Assembly: GCA_002719955.1 (NCBI GenBank)
Contig: PBFW01000025.1
Location: 18,268 to 82,267, forward strand
Direction of reading: 5' to 3'
DNA from: Deltaproteobacteria bacterium
GTDB taxonomy: Bacteria > Myxococcota_A > UBA9160 > UBA4427
Length of the DNA: 64,000 nt
In this document: positions 941 through 62,571 of the stretch, piece after piece
Position numbering within the stretch: position 1 is the first letter of the stretch
Layout of the letters: every line of letters starts with the position of its first letter
Position numbers and translations under genes: made by a program
Notes under the pieces: generated by a model
What the model was told of the DNA's origin: nothing
Databases searched by the model: none
What the model saw: the letters and a program-made list of their open reading frames with translations, nothing else

Positions 941-1408
941 TCAGTCGAGGTCCTTGGACATCGCGCGGTGCTTGATCCCGGCTTCGATAAATTCGTCGCC
1001 TTCGCTCCGGTAACCGAGCCTCTCGTAGAAGGGGACGGCGGCGACCTGGGCATTCAGGCAGATGCGTGAGAGCGCGCGGTTTCGTGCCCGCGACTCGATC
1101 GCTTCCATCAGCAAGCGCCCGAGTCCGAGATGACGTGCGGATTCGAGCACGGCCACTCGTTCGGCCTGCGCGGTCGATCCGATGACGCGCATTCGGGCGG
1201 TCCCGCGGGCGCGTTCATCGGGGCCGGGATGCGTGAGTGCAATGAAGTGTTCCGCGATCTCGTCGAGTCCGTCCCATTCGAGCTCCGCCGGAACGGATTG
1301 TTCCTCGACGAAAACGATTCGGCGGATCTTGCAGCATTCGGCGAACCAAGGAGGATCGATGCCCCGTTCAATGGGAGCGAAGGAGATCCGCTCGATCCGG
1401 GGCTGCAT
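941..1408 (-). CDS. GNAT family N-acetyltransferase
   Basis: MQPRIERISF...RRIVFVEEQSVPAELEWDGLDEIAEHF..ARMRVIGSTAQAERVAVLESARHLGLGRLLMEAIE..AQVAAVPFYERLGYRSEGDEFIEAGIKHRAM: GNAT acetyl-CoA binding pattern; internal ATG preferred over the 200-aa ORF start. Confidence 0.78.
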   Translation of the reverse strand: MQPRIERISFAPIERGIDPPWFAECCKIRRIVFVEEQSVPAELEWDGLDEIAEHFIALTHPGPDERARGTARMRVIGSTAQAERVAVLESARHLGLGRLLMEAIESRARNRALSRICLNAQVAAVPFYERLGYRSEGDEFIEAGIKHRAMSKDLD

Positions 1409-1593
1409 CGTCGATCGAGACCTGGCGTCCAGCAACACAGCGAGCCTCCCTGAGATGGGCTTGTCGGTCGATGAGGATGGATCAGCGGGCGCGAAGATCG
1501 TCCCGGGTCTCGGATGCGATGCGGCGTTTGCGAGCGATGCCATTGTACAGAAACCGATGGCCCGAAATGACGCCCTACAGCAAAGACGTCCGT

Positions 1594-1635
1594 AAAAAAG
1601 CAGACGCCCCGGCGTCGGCAGACGTCGGGGCGTTT
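1594..1635 (-). terminator. Intrinsic terminator on the minus strand
   Basis: Minus strand ACGCCCCGACGTC-TGCC-GACGCCGGGGCGT (one mismatch) followed by CTGCTTTTTTAC. Confidence 0.7.
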
Positions 1636-1727
1636 GACTTGAATGATTCGATCGGTTGCTCAGACCGCCGGCTCAGGGCTCAAGTGAGCCGGACTCGATC
1701 ATTCCGGTTTTTCTTCTCTTGCTCTAG

Positions 1728-1817
1728 CTACTCAATCAAAATTCGTTGTTCTTCTGGAAGAGCGAGCGCCTTGAATCTCGAAGGACTCCTGGCTGAATGG
1801 CTCTCGGGAATCATCAT
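1728..1817 (-). CDS. Candidate small protein (29 aa, MMIPESHSARSPSRFKALALPEEQRILIE)
   Basis: ATG preceded by GGAAGG at suitable spacing, stop TAG at 1728-1730; lies between a sigma-54-like promoter and an intrinsic terminator. Confidence 0.4.
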   Translation of the reverse strand: MMIPESHSARSPSRFKALALPEEQRILIE

Positions 1818-1845
1818 GTCCCGATCCTTCCTTGGAGTATTCTTA

Positions 1846-1861
1846 AGCAGATTGCGTGCCA
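1846..1861 (-). promoter_or_regulatory. Putative sigma-54 (-24/-12) promoter
   Basis: Minus strand TGGCACGCAATCTGCT; GG and GC dinucleotides at the correct spacing for TGGCAC-N5-TTGCW. Confidence 0.55.
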
Positions 1862-2488
1862 ATCTCTTCGCCAAATAAGAAGCCAAATGACTACAGGGAG
1901 TTGCGGGCGAATCGGCGATCCATTGGCCACCGATCGAATCCGATGGAGTGGTGCGTTCTGCTCCACTCGAGCCACTGGGCCGATTGAGGACATTATAAGT
2001 AACGGTTTTATTACAGGAAAATATATTTCATCGGAGAGTGGTGTGATTCGCACCGCCGGAGTATTTTGCACCACAGAATTGATGCCCCCATGGGGGTTTC
2101 TTTCTTTGGAGCCCAGAATCAGGCGGGCGGATGAGAAAATCGATCGCGCGGGCTCGTTGCTGCCTCCGTTTGCCCGCCGCTCCAAGGGGGCCCCGTGTGC
2201 CTGGCATCCGAACTCGACCCGCCGGGGGGCACGGCCGGCCGATCGGTCCGGGATCGGCGAGAGCAGGGACGCCTCGTCATGGCGACCCGTCGGCGGACCG
2301 TGCCCGCCTGGATCTCGCGACCGGGTGATCCTTTCGGCGGCCTTCGGGATGAGCCACCGGTCGAGTTTCGGGGAGCGCCGCGACCGATCGCGCTTCTCGA
2401 TGGCCGAGCTGATCGGGAATGAGTCGGGACGTGATAGCCTGCCGCCAAGGGCGCTGATTCGGCAATGCATGGGGCGGACCGGGTTGTA

Positions 2489-58260: not shown

Positions 58261-58334
58261 GGCGGCGTAGCCAAGTGGTAAGGCACGGGCCTGCAAAGCC
58301 CTGATCCCCGGTTCGAACCCGGGCGCCGCCTCCA
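58261..58334 (+). tRNA. tRNA-Cys (anticodon GCA), CCA encoded
   Basis: Cloverleaf GGCGGCG...CCTGCAAAG...GGTTCGAACCC...CGCCGCC-T-CCA. Confidence 0.96.
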
Positions 58335-58510
58335 GCACTCATTGAGAACTCTGGGATGGATATGGGGATTGTCGCGAGGGGCCCCTCGTGGCGACTCGTC
58401 GGGTCATGCTCGTCCGGATTGTCTCCTGGTCTTCCTGGGGAGGCTCGATCAGATAGCCTTCCGGTCTTCGCCAGGTGGCGAGGGCGGGCGCGCGGGGCGG
58501 AACGAGTGGA

Positions 58511-59272
58511 TCAGGGCTCGAGCTTGCGGCCCTTCGGATCGAAGATCGAGGACTCGTGAAGGCCGAGCCTCTGCAGGAAGAGCAGTGCGGATACGCCGAG
58601 AACGCCGACACCGTATCTCACGGAGCGGCCGAAGTTGATCGATGAGGCGTCCTCGAAATAGGCGGTGGGGCAGCTGATCTCGCCGATCTGGAATCCCTGG
58701 TGGAGGATCTGCGCGAGCATCTGATTGTCGAATACGAAATCGTCCGAGTTCTCGAGCAGTGGCAGCCGTTCGAGGACCCGGCGCGTGAAAGCGCGGTAAC
58801 CGGTGTGGTATTCCGAGAGTTTTGCGCCGGAGAGCAGGTTCTGGGTGGCGGTCAGGAAGCGATTCGCGACGTATTTGTAGCGAGGCATTCCCCCCCGCAG
58901 TGCGCCCCCGCCGAGCACCCGCGAGCCCAGCACGACATCATAGGGACCGTCGGTCAGCAGGCCGACCATCGAGGGGATCAGCTTCGGTGTGTATTGGTAG
59001 TCGGGGTGGAGCATGACGACGATATCCGCGCCGAGTCGTAACGCTTCCTGGTAGCAGGTTTTTTGATTGCCCCCGTAACCCCGATTCTGGGGGTGCACCA
59101 GGGTCCGCAGACCCAGACGCTCCGCTTCGGCGACCGTCGAATCATCACTTGCATCGTCCGTCACGACGACCTCGTCCACCAGATCCATCGGGATCTCCTG
59201 GACGGTTCGCTCGAGGGTTCGAGCCGCGTTGTAGGCGGGCATCACGACGACTACGCGCTGCTGGTGGAACAT
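58511..59272 (-). CDS. Glycosyltransferase family 2
   Basis: RVVVVMPAYNAARTLERTVQEIPMDLVDEVVVTDDASDDSTVAEAERLG..HPQNRGYGGNQKTCYQEALRLGADIVVMLHPDYQY. Confidence 0.94.
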   Translation of the reverse strand: MFHQQRVVVVMPAYNAARTLERTVQEIPMDLVDEVVVTDDASDDSTVAEAERLGLRTLVHPQNRGYGGNQKTCYQEALRLGADIVVMLHPDYQYTPKLIPSMVGLLTDGPYDVVLGSRVLGGGALRGGMPRYKYVANRFLTATQNLLSGAKLSEYHTGYRAFTRRVLERLPLLENSDDFVFDNQMLAQILHQGFQIGEISCPTAYFEDASSINFGRSVRYGVGVLGVSALLFLQRLGLHESSIFDPKGRKLEP

Positions 59273-59381
59273 CCGAGGTTTCAGGCTCCTTTGCGTGTCC
59301 CGAACCCGAAGGGTCGGGTTGGGCAGCTCGCGGGTTTCGAGCAGGGCGTTCGGGAAGACAAGAGGATAGACTTTGCCCCCT

Positions 59382-59466
59382 GCCCGGGTGGCGAAATGGT
59401 AAACGCGGACGACTTAAAATCGTCTGGCCTATGGCCGTGCAGGTTCGAGTCCTGCCCCGGGCACCA
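59382..59466 (+). tRNA. tRNA-Leu (anticodon UAA), CCA encoded
   Basis: GCCCGGG...GACGACTTAAAATCGTC...long variable arm...GGTTCGAGTCC...CCCGGGC-A-CCA. Confidence 0.95.
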
Positions 59467-59497
59467 TCCTCCGGCTTTCTACGCTCCGCCCGGACGC

Positions 59498-59812
59498 CTA
59501 TTCCAGCTGATCCAGCAGCCGTTCCCGAATATCGTCGGTCGCGAGGAGTTCTTCGAGCGCATCGCGGTCGAGCAGGGTCGTCCGCTGATAGTTCTGATCC
59601 GGACGCTCGATCTCGACGCGGTAGATCTCTTTTGGATCGTCGAAGATCTGGCGGATCCGCAAGGATTGATCCGGGTCGCCCTCGAGAATCTGCACCCGCA
59701 GCGAATCGACGATCCGATCGCTGCGATCGACACACAGAGAGAGCGGGTCCATTGCCTCCGCAGAGGAGCGGCGGGCGTTTCCGAGTAGCTTGAAGGTTCC
59801 GTGTGGCTTCAT
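59498..59812 (-). CDS. Hypothetical protein (104 aa)
   Basis: Coherent ORF MKPHGTFKLLGNARR...IYRVEIERPDQNYQRTTLLDRDALEELLATDDIRERLLDQLE. Confidence 0.45.
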   Translation of the reverse strand: MKPHGTFKLLGNARRSSAEAMDPLSLCVDRSDRIVDSLRVQILEGDPDQSLRIRQIFDDPKEIYRVEIERPDQNYQRTTLLDRDALEELLATDDIRERLLDQLE

Positions 59813-59848
59813 GGGGAGATCAAGGATACCGGTCGGTGGACGGGCGAT

Positions 59849-60289
59849 TCAAGCATGAATCGAGTGTCCGCGTAGACGGCGCATTCGTCGCGCACGTGCG
59901 CGCTCTTGATCGCGCGCGGCAAAGAGGCGAGCGATCGGCAGCAGGTCGCTCGGGGAGTTGCCGTCGAAGGCGATGCCGAAAACCGCATCGTCGTCTCTCC
60001 CCCTGGGCGGCCCGAAGAGCGACGGATGGAGCGTCTGCTTCGACCAGGCGACATGGCCCCTGCTGGTGAAGACCCGTTCCGTCGGCAGTCGGACCTCAAT
60101 GCGAACCGGAGTGCCCGGCTTCGGGCCCACCGCGGCCGAGATGCGAAGGCCCCCGAGTCCGATATTCGTGCAGTGAGCGAGGGGAGCGGCGGGGCTTCCG
60201 TCGAGGGTCGTCACGAAGAGCCGGACGCGAAGCGGGACGCGCTCTCCGTTTCGCGAATCGTTGCGGTGCTGTCGAAGCGCTCTGCCCAT
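59849..60289 (-). CDS. PilZ domain protein
   Basis: NGERVPLRVRL (RxxxR) and NIGLGGLRI ((D/N)xSxxG-like); C-terminal FGIAFDG. Confidence 0.86.
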   Translation of the reverse strand: MGRALRQHRNDSRNGERVPLRVRLFVTTLDGSPAAPLAHCTNIGLGGLRISAAVGPKPGTPVRIEVRLPTERVFTSRGHVAWSKQTLHPSLFGPPRGRDDDAVFGIAFDGNSPSDLLPIARLFAARDQERARARRMRRLRGHSIHA

Positions 60290-60680
60290 GCTGGACTCCG
60301 ATCGTGCTCCTCTCTATCGGCGGGAGAGATCGGATCTCTTGAGTGCAATTCGAATGCGCGTGCCGGTGTGTTCGTCTCGATCGGGTGCGGAAATCCCTTG
60401 TACGTCCCTAAGGGGTTCATCTCGGGCGAGGCGAATCACAGATCGATGTGGCGGTCCTCCCCGCCCGGTGCTGGAATTCAGCATGGCTGGGCGAAGTGGC
60501 CAGAGGCCACGACGAAGCGGGCTCTGTGCAGTCCTTTCCCGCGGTTCGCCGATTGCCGCTCCCTGCTCGAGGCCGTCGATCCGCTTCGAGCTATGCTGAT
60601 CTGCTGACCCCGGCCGGCGCGGACGAACCGTTTCCTCGCGCGAGCGCCGGCCTACGCGGACGAGTCCGTTTCGGAACCCC

Positions 60681-61493
60681 ATGGCCTCAGCCGGCAACAG
60701 ATCTCGTCGTTCCACGGGGCGACGTTCGAACGACGTCTCCTCGGATTGGATCTACGGTTTTCATCCCGTTCGCGAAGCGCTTCGCGCGGGGCGGCGGAGG
60801 CTCGAATGTCTCTGGCTGCGGGCGGGGTCGGCGAGAGCGGATCACGACGAGCTTTCCACGCTCGCGCGGGATGCCGGAATTCCGGTGGAGATCGTGGAGC
60901 GCGCTGCCATCGATGAACTCGCGGGCTCCGAGGCTCAGACCCAGGGCGTCGCGCTCCGGGCCGGTCCCATTCCGGAGCTCTCGCTCGACGAGCTGATCGC
61001 GTATGTGGGATCGCGGCGGAATTCCGGTGGGGGCCAGATCGTAGCCCTGGACGGGGTTAAAGACCCTCAGAATGTAGGGGCGCTGGCGCGGGTGGCCGAA
61101 TCGGCTGGGGCGGACGGTCTCGTGCTGACGGAGCGACGGGCTCCGGAGCTCACGCCCGCCGTAAGTCGAGCCTCCGCCGGGGCGGTCGAGTGGTTGCGGG
61201 TCGCGCGGGTCCCCAATCTTGGTCGGGCCCTTTCGAGCCTCAAGGAGGCCGGGTTCTGGATTGTCGCGGCGGCTCCGGAGAACGGCGCCTGTCTTTTCGA
61301 AATAGAGGACCGGCTACTGACCGGGAACCTGGTGGTGGTTCTGGGCGCTGAGAGCAAGGGAATCCGACCGGGAGTGTTGAAATTGGCCGACCATGAGGTC
61401 GCCATCCCGATGCGGGGCAACGTCGCTTCACTGAATGTCTCCACCGCCGGGGCGATCATTCTCTACGATCTGCTCCGCCGGTCTATCAGATAG
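60681..61493 (+). CDS. rlmB: 23S rRNA 2'-O-methyltransferase RlmB / TrmH family
   Basis: IYGFHPVREALRAGRRRLECLWL, LDGVKDPQNVGALARVAESAGADG, VLGAESKGIRPGVLKLADHEVAIPMRGNVASLNVSTAGAI. Confidence 0.94.
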   Translation: MASAGNRSRRSTGRRSNDVSSDWIYGFHPVREALRAGRRRLECLWLRAGSARADHDELSTLARDAGIPVEIVERAAIDELAGSEAQTQGVALRAGPIPELSLDELIAYVGSRRNSGGGQIVALDGVKDPQNVGALARVAESAGADGLVLTERRAPELTPAVSRASAGAVEWLRVARVPNLGRALSSLKEAGFWIVAAAPENGACLFEIEDRLLTGNLVVVLGAESKGIRPGVLKLADHEVAIPMRGNVASLNVSTAGAIILYDLLRRSIR

Positions 61494-61564
61494 CCAAGAT
61501 GCCCCCTGGGGATTGCGGTCTGATCGAATTTTCTCGCGGGGACGTGTAGAAGTCCCTGAGGCGC

Positions 61565-61594
61565 TTGCCAGCGGGGATATGGCCGGTCTATAGT
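61565..61594 (+). promoter_or_regulatory. Putative sigma-70-type promoter for the tRNA-tuf cluster
   Basis: TTGCCA-N18-TATAGT upstream of tRNA-Thr. Confidence 0.5.
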
Positions 61595-61683
61595 CCGCAG
61601 CTCTCAGTTTCAATACTTGAAGGTTTATGAGGGCCGCTTCGGGCGGATCGGTTACGGCCGTCTGCATGGGGCGGACGGCCTTG

Positions 61684-61756
61684 GCTGGCGTAGCTCAACT
61701 GGTAGAGCATCGGATTTGTAATCCGAAGGTTAAGGGTTCGAGTCCCCTCGCCAGCT
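61684..61756 (+). tRNA. tRNA-Thr (anticodon UGU), CCA not encoded
   Basis: GCTGGCG...GGATTTGTAATCC...GGTTCGAGTCC...CGCCAGC-T. Confidence 0.96.
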
Positions 61757-62122
61757 CCGGCGCTGTGGTTCGACCAGGAGCCAGATCGCAAATCGGACGG
61801 GTCAAGAATAGGTTGTGCGTCGAGTTTCGATCCCGGGCAACGAATCATTTTCAGCTCTTTCGATCCAGATATTTTTCGTGGGTGAACTCAAGGATTCGAA
61901 TCAGCGTTCGACCGGCCATCGTCACGGACAGGCTGATCCGTCAACAAAATCGAATGATTATGTTTTAAGGAAGGTTTCCGACAGCTTCGGCGGGTAGGTA
62001 CGCAGAACTTCGCGGATCTGATTCCGACTTCGCTCGTTCTTGCAAACTAGAAGCGAGCCCACTGGGCCGTCGTGTGGCTGACGGGGAATCTCGAGCATCA
62101 AGACGGGTTGACTTCGAGCGTG

Positions 62123-62208
62123 GAGGGATACCGAAGCGGTTAAACGGGGCAGACTGTAAATCTGCTGGCCTTTGGCCTACGGAGGTTCGAATCCTCCTCC
62201 CTCCACCA
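62123..62208 (+). tRNA. tRNA-Tyr (anticodon GUA), CCA encoded
   Basis: GGAGGGA...CAGACTGTAAATCTG...variable arm...GGTTCGAATCC...TCCCTCC-A-CCA. Confidence 0.96.
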
Positions 62209-62322
62209 GCCCGCAAGCAGGCGGATGGCTTGCAGTTTGATCGGGACTTTCTCGGGATTTTCCTCGGGACCAAGCGCGAAGGTAGACGTGGTTCGGAAGA
62301 GCATGGGGACGAAAAAGAATGT

Positions 62323-62399
62323 GCGGGAATAGCTCAGCTGGCTAGAGCACCAGCCTTCCAAGCTGGGGGTCGCGGGTTCGAATCCCGTTTCCCGCTCCA
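62323..62399 (+). tRNA. tRNA-Gly (anticodon UCC), CCA encoded
   Basis: GCGGGAA...CCAGCCTTCCAAGCTGG...GGTTCGAATCC...TTCCCGC-T-CCA. Confidence 0.96.
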
Positions 62400-62495
62400 A
62401 TAAATGATTGACTGACGATCGGCGGGCCGGGGTGGCTCAGAGAAGCACTCGAAGGGCTCGCGAGAGCGAATCGAGTTTGGAGGCAGAAGAGATCG

Positions 62496-62571
62496 GCTCA
62501 CGTAGCTCAGGTGGTAGAGCACGTCCTTGGTAAGGACGAGGTCAGCGGTTCGAGCCCGCTCGTGAGCTCCA
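62496..62571 (+). tRNA. tRNA-Thr (anticodon GGU), CCA encoded
   Basis: GCTCACG...GTCCTTGGTAAGGAC...GGTTCGAGCCC...CGTGAGC-T-CCA. Confidence 0.96.

Follow-up and report, generated by a model that had tools for sequence, protein, structure and literature searches.

A putative sigma-54-dependent noncoding RNA, conserved at one locus in a single deltaproteobacterial genus

When a short open reading frame is preceded by a plausible ribosome-binding site and lies between a promoter and a terminator, is its product a small protein or an RNA? The question is raised by a compact minus-strand unit in the stretch of 64,000 nucleotides analysed here (the window), which belongs to a metagenome-assembled genome of 5.85 Mb in 77 contigs (completeness estimated at 94%, contamination at 8.6%) from lineage UBA4427, which GTDB places among the Myxococcota. 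A first-pass annotation, made from the letters of the DNA, had described a sigma-54-like promoter, a 29-codon frame with a ribosome-binding site and an intrinsic terminator, and had left the product as a regulated small protein, a dual-function RNA or a small RNA (sRNA). The reading preferred here, at a probability of roughly 0.83, is that the unit is monocistronic and encodes a noncoding sRNA of about 240 nt that acts in trans, predicted to depend on sigma-54 and an activator and to be independent of Hfq. This reading rests on five genomes of one genus: that of the window and those of four relatives. The features of the locus are collected in Table 1.

Table 1. Features of the putative sRNA locus, in positions of the window
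Feature	Position	Strand	Sequence or description	Basis or remark
UAS3, enhancer-like palindrome	2057..2073	-	TGGTGCAAAATACTCCG	~211 bp upstream of -24; leave-one-genome-out score 19.6
UAS2, enhancer-like palindrome	2039..2055	-	CGGTGCGAATCACACCA	~193 bp upstream of -24, 18 bp from UAS3; leave-one-genome-out score 18.0
UAS1, enhancer-like palindrome	1949..1965	-	TGGAGCAGAACGCACCA	103 bp upstream of -24; leave-one-genome-out score 22.4
Predicted sigma-54 promoter, -24/-12	1846..1862	-	TTGGCACGCAATCTGCT	sole exact match in window; conserved in relatives; rpoN present
Predicted noncoding sRNA	1594..1835	-	~242 nt	start placed by promoter spacing, end by T tract
29-codon frame	1728..1817	-	ATG ATG ... 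GAG TAG	judged not a gene; absent from 4/4 relatives
5' hairpin	1805..1823	-	CGGGA-loop-TCCCG	minimum-energy fold in 4/5 genomes, not G005
Hairpin 2	1668..1692	-	CCGGCTCA-CTTGAGCCC-TGAGCCGG, loop TTGAGC[C/A]	compensatory changes between genomes
Hairpin 3	1653..1667	-	CGGT-CTGAGCA-ACCG	stem kept in 5/5 genomes
Predicted intrinsic terminator	1594..1633	-	12/13-pair stem (1633-1604), then CTGC + T6 (1599-1594)	conserved 5/5

Promoter, upstream palindromes and candidate activators

An exact TTGGCACG-N5-TGCW element occurs once in the 64 kb of the window, at the promoter itself (1862-1846); with one mismatch allowed, two matches were found against 0.30 expected from shuffles. The corresponding place in all five syntenic loci carried the -24/-12 element TTGGCACG-N5-TGC[A/T], mean pairwise identity across the promoter core was 78% among the five genomes, and rpoN was present in the host genome (E = 4.6e-64). 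The first-pass annotation had called this promoter from its -24/-12 spacing and had named rpoN and conservation in relatives as checks; both came out in its favour. Because rpoN is present, the element is found in 5/5 loci and enhancer-like sites are conserved along with it, the sigma-54 reading is strongly supported. The second-best sigma-54-like match in the window, TTGGCACGGGCGGTGCG at 52480-52464 on the minus strand, had no upstream palindromes near it.

Sigma-54 promoters require an activated enhancer-binding activator (bEBP), normally bound upstream. Three palindromes with the consensus TGGTGCA-N3-TGCACCA, missed in the first pass, were located upstream of the promoter. The sites used to build the scoring matrix were first chosen by eye, so that a leave-one-genome-out design is the relevant control; the sites of the window were thus scored with a matrix built without the window's own genome, from the remaining four. 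Across the five genomes, the three top sites of each genome were these palindromes (scores 12-23), and in 500 shuffles the third-best site never scored above 5.2. For shuffles of the window (n = 500) the third-best score was at most 3.7, as compared to 19.6 for UAS3. Their spacing was also preserved: in every one of the five genomes UAS1 was located 103-105 bp upstream, and in four the UAS2/UAS3 pair, whose members are separated by 18 bp, was at about 193-197 and 211-215 bp, with UAS3 at the same position in G002, G003 and G004. The outer pair is present in G005 as well, at an exact distance made uncertain by a masked run of N.

A strict tandem-palindrome pattern matched the sRNA locus in four of the five RNA-carrying genomes; elsewhere in nine genomes it gave two unrelated-looking matches, similar to a reversed-pattern control. 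Within the genus, there is essentially no second locus with the tandem pair. Single site-like matches in the host genome were no commoner than those of the reversed-pattern control, and a scan of that genome for other promoters sharing the palindromes revealed no other site-like match near a -24/-12 element.

The host genome encodes 17 full bEBPs, none of them on the stretch of its contig (C25) that carries the RNA. The 17 were compared with those of eight relatives in a phylogenetic profile (nine genomes). The best match was a response regulator (L111) whose gene adjoins one for a histidine kinase and which is present in G000, G001, G002, G003, G005 and G008; it was not assigned as the activator of the sRNA, its orthologues extending to other genera in which no copy of the RNA was found. 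An autoregulated bEBP gene was considered and rejected, the sole cluster of site-like sequences lying within bEBP coding sequence. This cluster (L100:1737-2013, on G000:C26) comprises three palindrome-like sequences within 280 bp (scores 11.8, 15.8 and 12.5), inside the region encoding the ATPase domain, and is possibly due to chance. Hfq (PF17209) was not detected in the 94%-complete host genome; the control search was positive in five known genomes.

A conserved 3' half with twin loops

The transcript predicted from promoter to T tract measured 222-252 nt across the five genomes, in line with the first-pass estimate of about 240 nt. Its two halves have diverged to different extents: mean pairwise identity among the five genomes was 76% in the 3' half and 48% in the 5' half, as compared to 36% for the spacer preceding the promoter and 30% over the 80 nt that follow the terminator. 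When the whole intergenic gap was searched against 60 relatives, matches were obtained in four same-genus genomes and covered window 1596-1704, the part that follows the frame.

The predicted fold of the 3' half runs from hairpin 2 through hairpin 3 and a short closing helix to the terminator. Hairpins 2 and 3, which lie between the frame and the terminator and were overlooked in the first pass, have the loop motif YTGAGCM in common (TTGAGC[C/A] and [C/T]TGAGC[A/C], respectively). The predicted probability of being unpaired was 0.93-0.99 for the hairpin 2 loop in four genomes and 0.75-0.97 for the hairpin 3 loop; in G005, hairpin 2 is remodelled and hairpin 3 retains the loop motif. In the five-sequence alignment, 96.9% of cells were paired and four pairs had changed on both sides, as compared to no two-sided changes and at most 47% paired in controls with the structure slid along the alignment. 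Covariation of this kind, drawn from five sequences and a consensus structure that came from the same alignment, is good but not final evidence that the 3' fold has been conserved with compensatory changes. The full-length fold was only mildly more stable than shuffles (z = -2.0).

The near-perfect hairpin and T6 tract read as a terminator in the first pass were confirmed as a stem of 12 pairs in 13, conserved in the five genomes and with one compensatory change at its base. A terminator scanner alone gave 6 hits against 5.1 in shuffles, no excess, and the case for the terminator therefore rests on conservation.

Known families offered no identity for the RNA. A search of the window with the Rfam 15 covariance models brought only tRNAs to the gathering score, and at E up to 5 the region 1500-2200 yielded two chance-level matches to unrelated families; candidate membership of a known sRNA family (Qrr, GlmY/Z and others) was rejected, with no match at either the gathering or the relaxed threshold. 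Six tRNA genes, all on the plus strand, are packed into 4.3 kb of the window (58261-62568).

Small protein, leader or relic

One question about the unit is whether the 29-codon frame is translated. The letters are as first described: a plausible Shine-Dalgarno sequence, GGAAGGA, lies at 1831-1825 (minus strand), 7 nt before ATG ATG, and the frame stays open for 29 codons, as would be expected of a regulated 29-residue small protein or of a dual-function RNA encoding one. However, its status as a gene did not survive comparison, in that none of the four same-genus relatives has a matching frame, ribosome-binding site or start. Small frames in the relatives' RNAs specify unrelated peptides, and some run through the terminator. 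The half of the RNA that holds the frame is the divergent one (33% identity between the window and the others, with 75% in the 3' half), and both ATGs fall in the loop of the 5' hairpin, the equivalent stem of which is part of the minimum-energy fold in three relatives that have no ATG there. The frame is probably a chance one inside the RNA, and a protein product, whether alone or from a dual-function RNA, is very unlikely. The sRNA option of the first-pass annotation stands, the region after the frame being conserved in both sequence and structure. The case shows that a frame, a ribosome-binding site and flanking signals are insufficient to call a small protein before relatives have been checked.

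The surroundings of the RNA bear on a different possibility, that it serves the genes downstream as a sigma-54-dependent leader whose terminator is regulated, in the manner of a riboswitch or attenuator. In the window, the RNA is flanked by an esterase gene on one side and a GNAT acetyltransferase gene on the other; at the loci of the four same-genus relatives (L003-L006), the esterase gene is again on one side, and the other side has genes for GNAT and dihydroorotase. Between the RNA and GNAT those four have a secreted chalcone-isomerase-like gene, identified by eye, which is missing there in the window. The genes to be controlled would be GNAT in the window and the chalcone-isomerase-like gene followed by GNAT in the relatives. 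They are on the same strand as the RNA, the gap from the end of the terminator to the annotated GNAT frame is about 50 nt in the window, the corresponding gap to the next gene is about 85-130 nt in the relatives, and a structured RNA ending in a terminator fits an attenuator. Yet the next downstream gene varies among genomes, a TATTCT/TACAAT-like -10 element is found between terminator and gene, four of the six loci from genera without the RNA have a similar GGGCTAT motif before GNAT, and no alternative pairing that could act as an anti-terminator was identified. Since the downstream genes appear to have -10 elements of their own, a free-standing sRNA is favoured; we consider a leader unlikely.

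Two details of the neighbouring genes were noted. The ATG of the longest GNAT frame (window 941-1543, minus strand) shares bases with a TACAAT (-10-like) motif; translation probably begins at the ATG near 1408 instead, in agreement with a promoter for GNAT itself just after the sRNA terminator. On the other side, a motif of the type GTGATAG-C-TGC just upstream of the esterase gene (window 2400-2465), conserved in all five genomes, is probably the -10 region of that gene.

The narrow distribution of the RNA invites a third explanation, that of a promoter-less or decayed relic, for example of a mobile element, with motifs arising by chance. A covariance model of the 3' half (R1), searched over 30 genomes of the family and 80 of the order, found convincing copies in five genomes, all of one genus, and none elsewhere among the genomes searched. 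Weaker matches in the family (L028-L040) were rejected as being without promoter and loop motif, and the order search added one further weak match in another family (L088, in G040; E = 3.2e-6). A scan of GTDB representatives with the conserved-motif pattern returned three same-genus records, no record titled as a myxobacterium, and two others (L084 and L086) that were rejected as chance matches inside unrelated DNA. No copy was detectable in four other genomes of the genus (G001, G006, G007 and G008), in none of which could a GNAT orthologue be detected: the contig of G001 ends at the locus, G007 has another gene in its place, and in G006 and G008 the flanking esterase lacks a close orthologue. 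Esterase and GNAT genes are adjacent without the RNA in six genomes of other genera (G017, G018, G023, G024, G026 and G028).

From these distributions, this genus would have acquired the unit between two conserved genes, or the unit would have been lost elsewhere, and an origin of that sort might suggest a relic. Decay, however, does not fit a promoter, palindromes and stems that have been kept, with compensatory changes, while spacers diverged to about 36% identity. Such conservation largely refutes the relic reading, which we regard as barely conceivable.

Kinship with known sRNAs and a possible mode of action

Among sRNAs with comparable control, the Qrr RNAs act with Hfq, and GlmY and GlmZ are under sigma-54/GlrR control, the GlrR site being TGTC-N10-GACA. 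The locus described here resembles both in being an sRNA gene with a sigma-54-type promoter, predicted in our case. As with the Qrr sRNAs of Vibrio, which are controlled by LuxO or SypG from a TGGCA-N7-TGC promoter with two or more palindromic upstream bEBP sites (PMC10162802), there are several palindromic sites upstream; unlike those, the sites read TGGTGCA-N3-TGCACCA rather than the LuxO site TTGCAWWWTGCAA, Hfq was not detected in the host, and there was no Rfam match. GlmY and GlmZ, intergenic sRNAs of enterobacteria (PMC7073468), share the intergenic setting but differ in their upstream sites and likewise produced no Rfam match here.

A closer parallel in architecture is Pxr of Myxococcus xanthus, a lineage-restricted sRNA with a predicted sigma-54 promoter, an upstream enhancer-binding region and three stem-loops, in a host without Hfq, where pxr adjoins the gene of its own activator, pxrR (PMC5684412, PMC5568312). 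All of these traits recur here, Hfq being undetected in the host, except that no bEBP gene is adjacent and the flanking genes differ; the comparison between the two is one of architecture. Dv_sRNA2 of Desulfovibrio, an sRNA gene of unknown function targeted by the response regulator DVU0679 (PMC3333781), offers the parallel of an sRNA gene under a response regulator, but it adjoins the regulator gene, which is not the case here. The palindromes have the 7-bp half-site and 3-bp spacer of the NtrC operator, TGCACCA-N3-TGGTGCA with consensus TGCACCAnnnTGGTGCA (PMC8743547), with the halves inside out; membership of the NtrC regulon was rejected, since the sites do not match the NtrC consensus. By analogy, the RNA would have the anatomy of the Pxr/Qrr-type sigma-54 sRNAs, with no detected kinship to a known family.

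The locus combines a -24/-12 promoter that has the GG...GC core at the correct spacing, upstream palindromes, rpoN and bEBPs in the host, and a structured, terminated RNA without a conserved frame. The proposed order of events is as follows: an activated bEBP would bind the upstream palindromes and switch on the sigma-54 promoter; the RNA would be transcribed from it, and transcription would stop ahead of the next gene, at the intrinsic terminator. Once folded, the RNA would have a 5' half that varies and a 3' half that is conserved, the latter with two adjacent hairpins that display the YTGAGCM loop. These twin loops would be the most likely functional contacts, by pairing with mRNA or by binding a protein, in either case without Hfq. 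A fuller account, which we offer tentatively and hold to be possible but doubtful, is of a new family of Hfq-independent sRNAs that entered one genus recently, by insertion between two conserved genes. Its sigma-54 activator, apparently a dedicated one, would have an inside-out NtrC-type operator found essentially only here, and the RNA would act through the two copies of the YTGAGCM loop, perhaps by titrating an RNA-binding protein.

The sigma-54 sRNAs that are understood sit at the top of decision circuits: Qrr in quorum sensing, Pxr in multicellular development, and GlmY/Z in the supply of envelope precursors. The RNA described here would add a conserved case from a deltaproteobacterial lineage represented here by metagenomes alone and without detectable Hfq, and its defined RNA, operator and promoter may provide a way to ask how such sRNAs work without Hfq.
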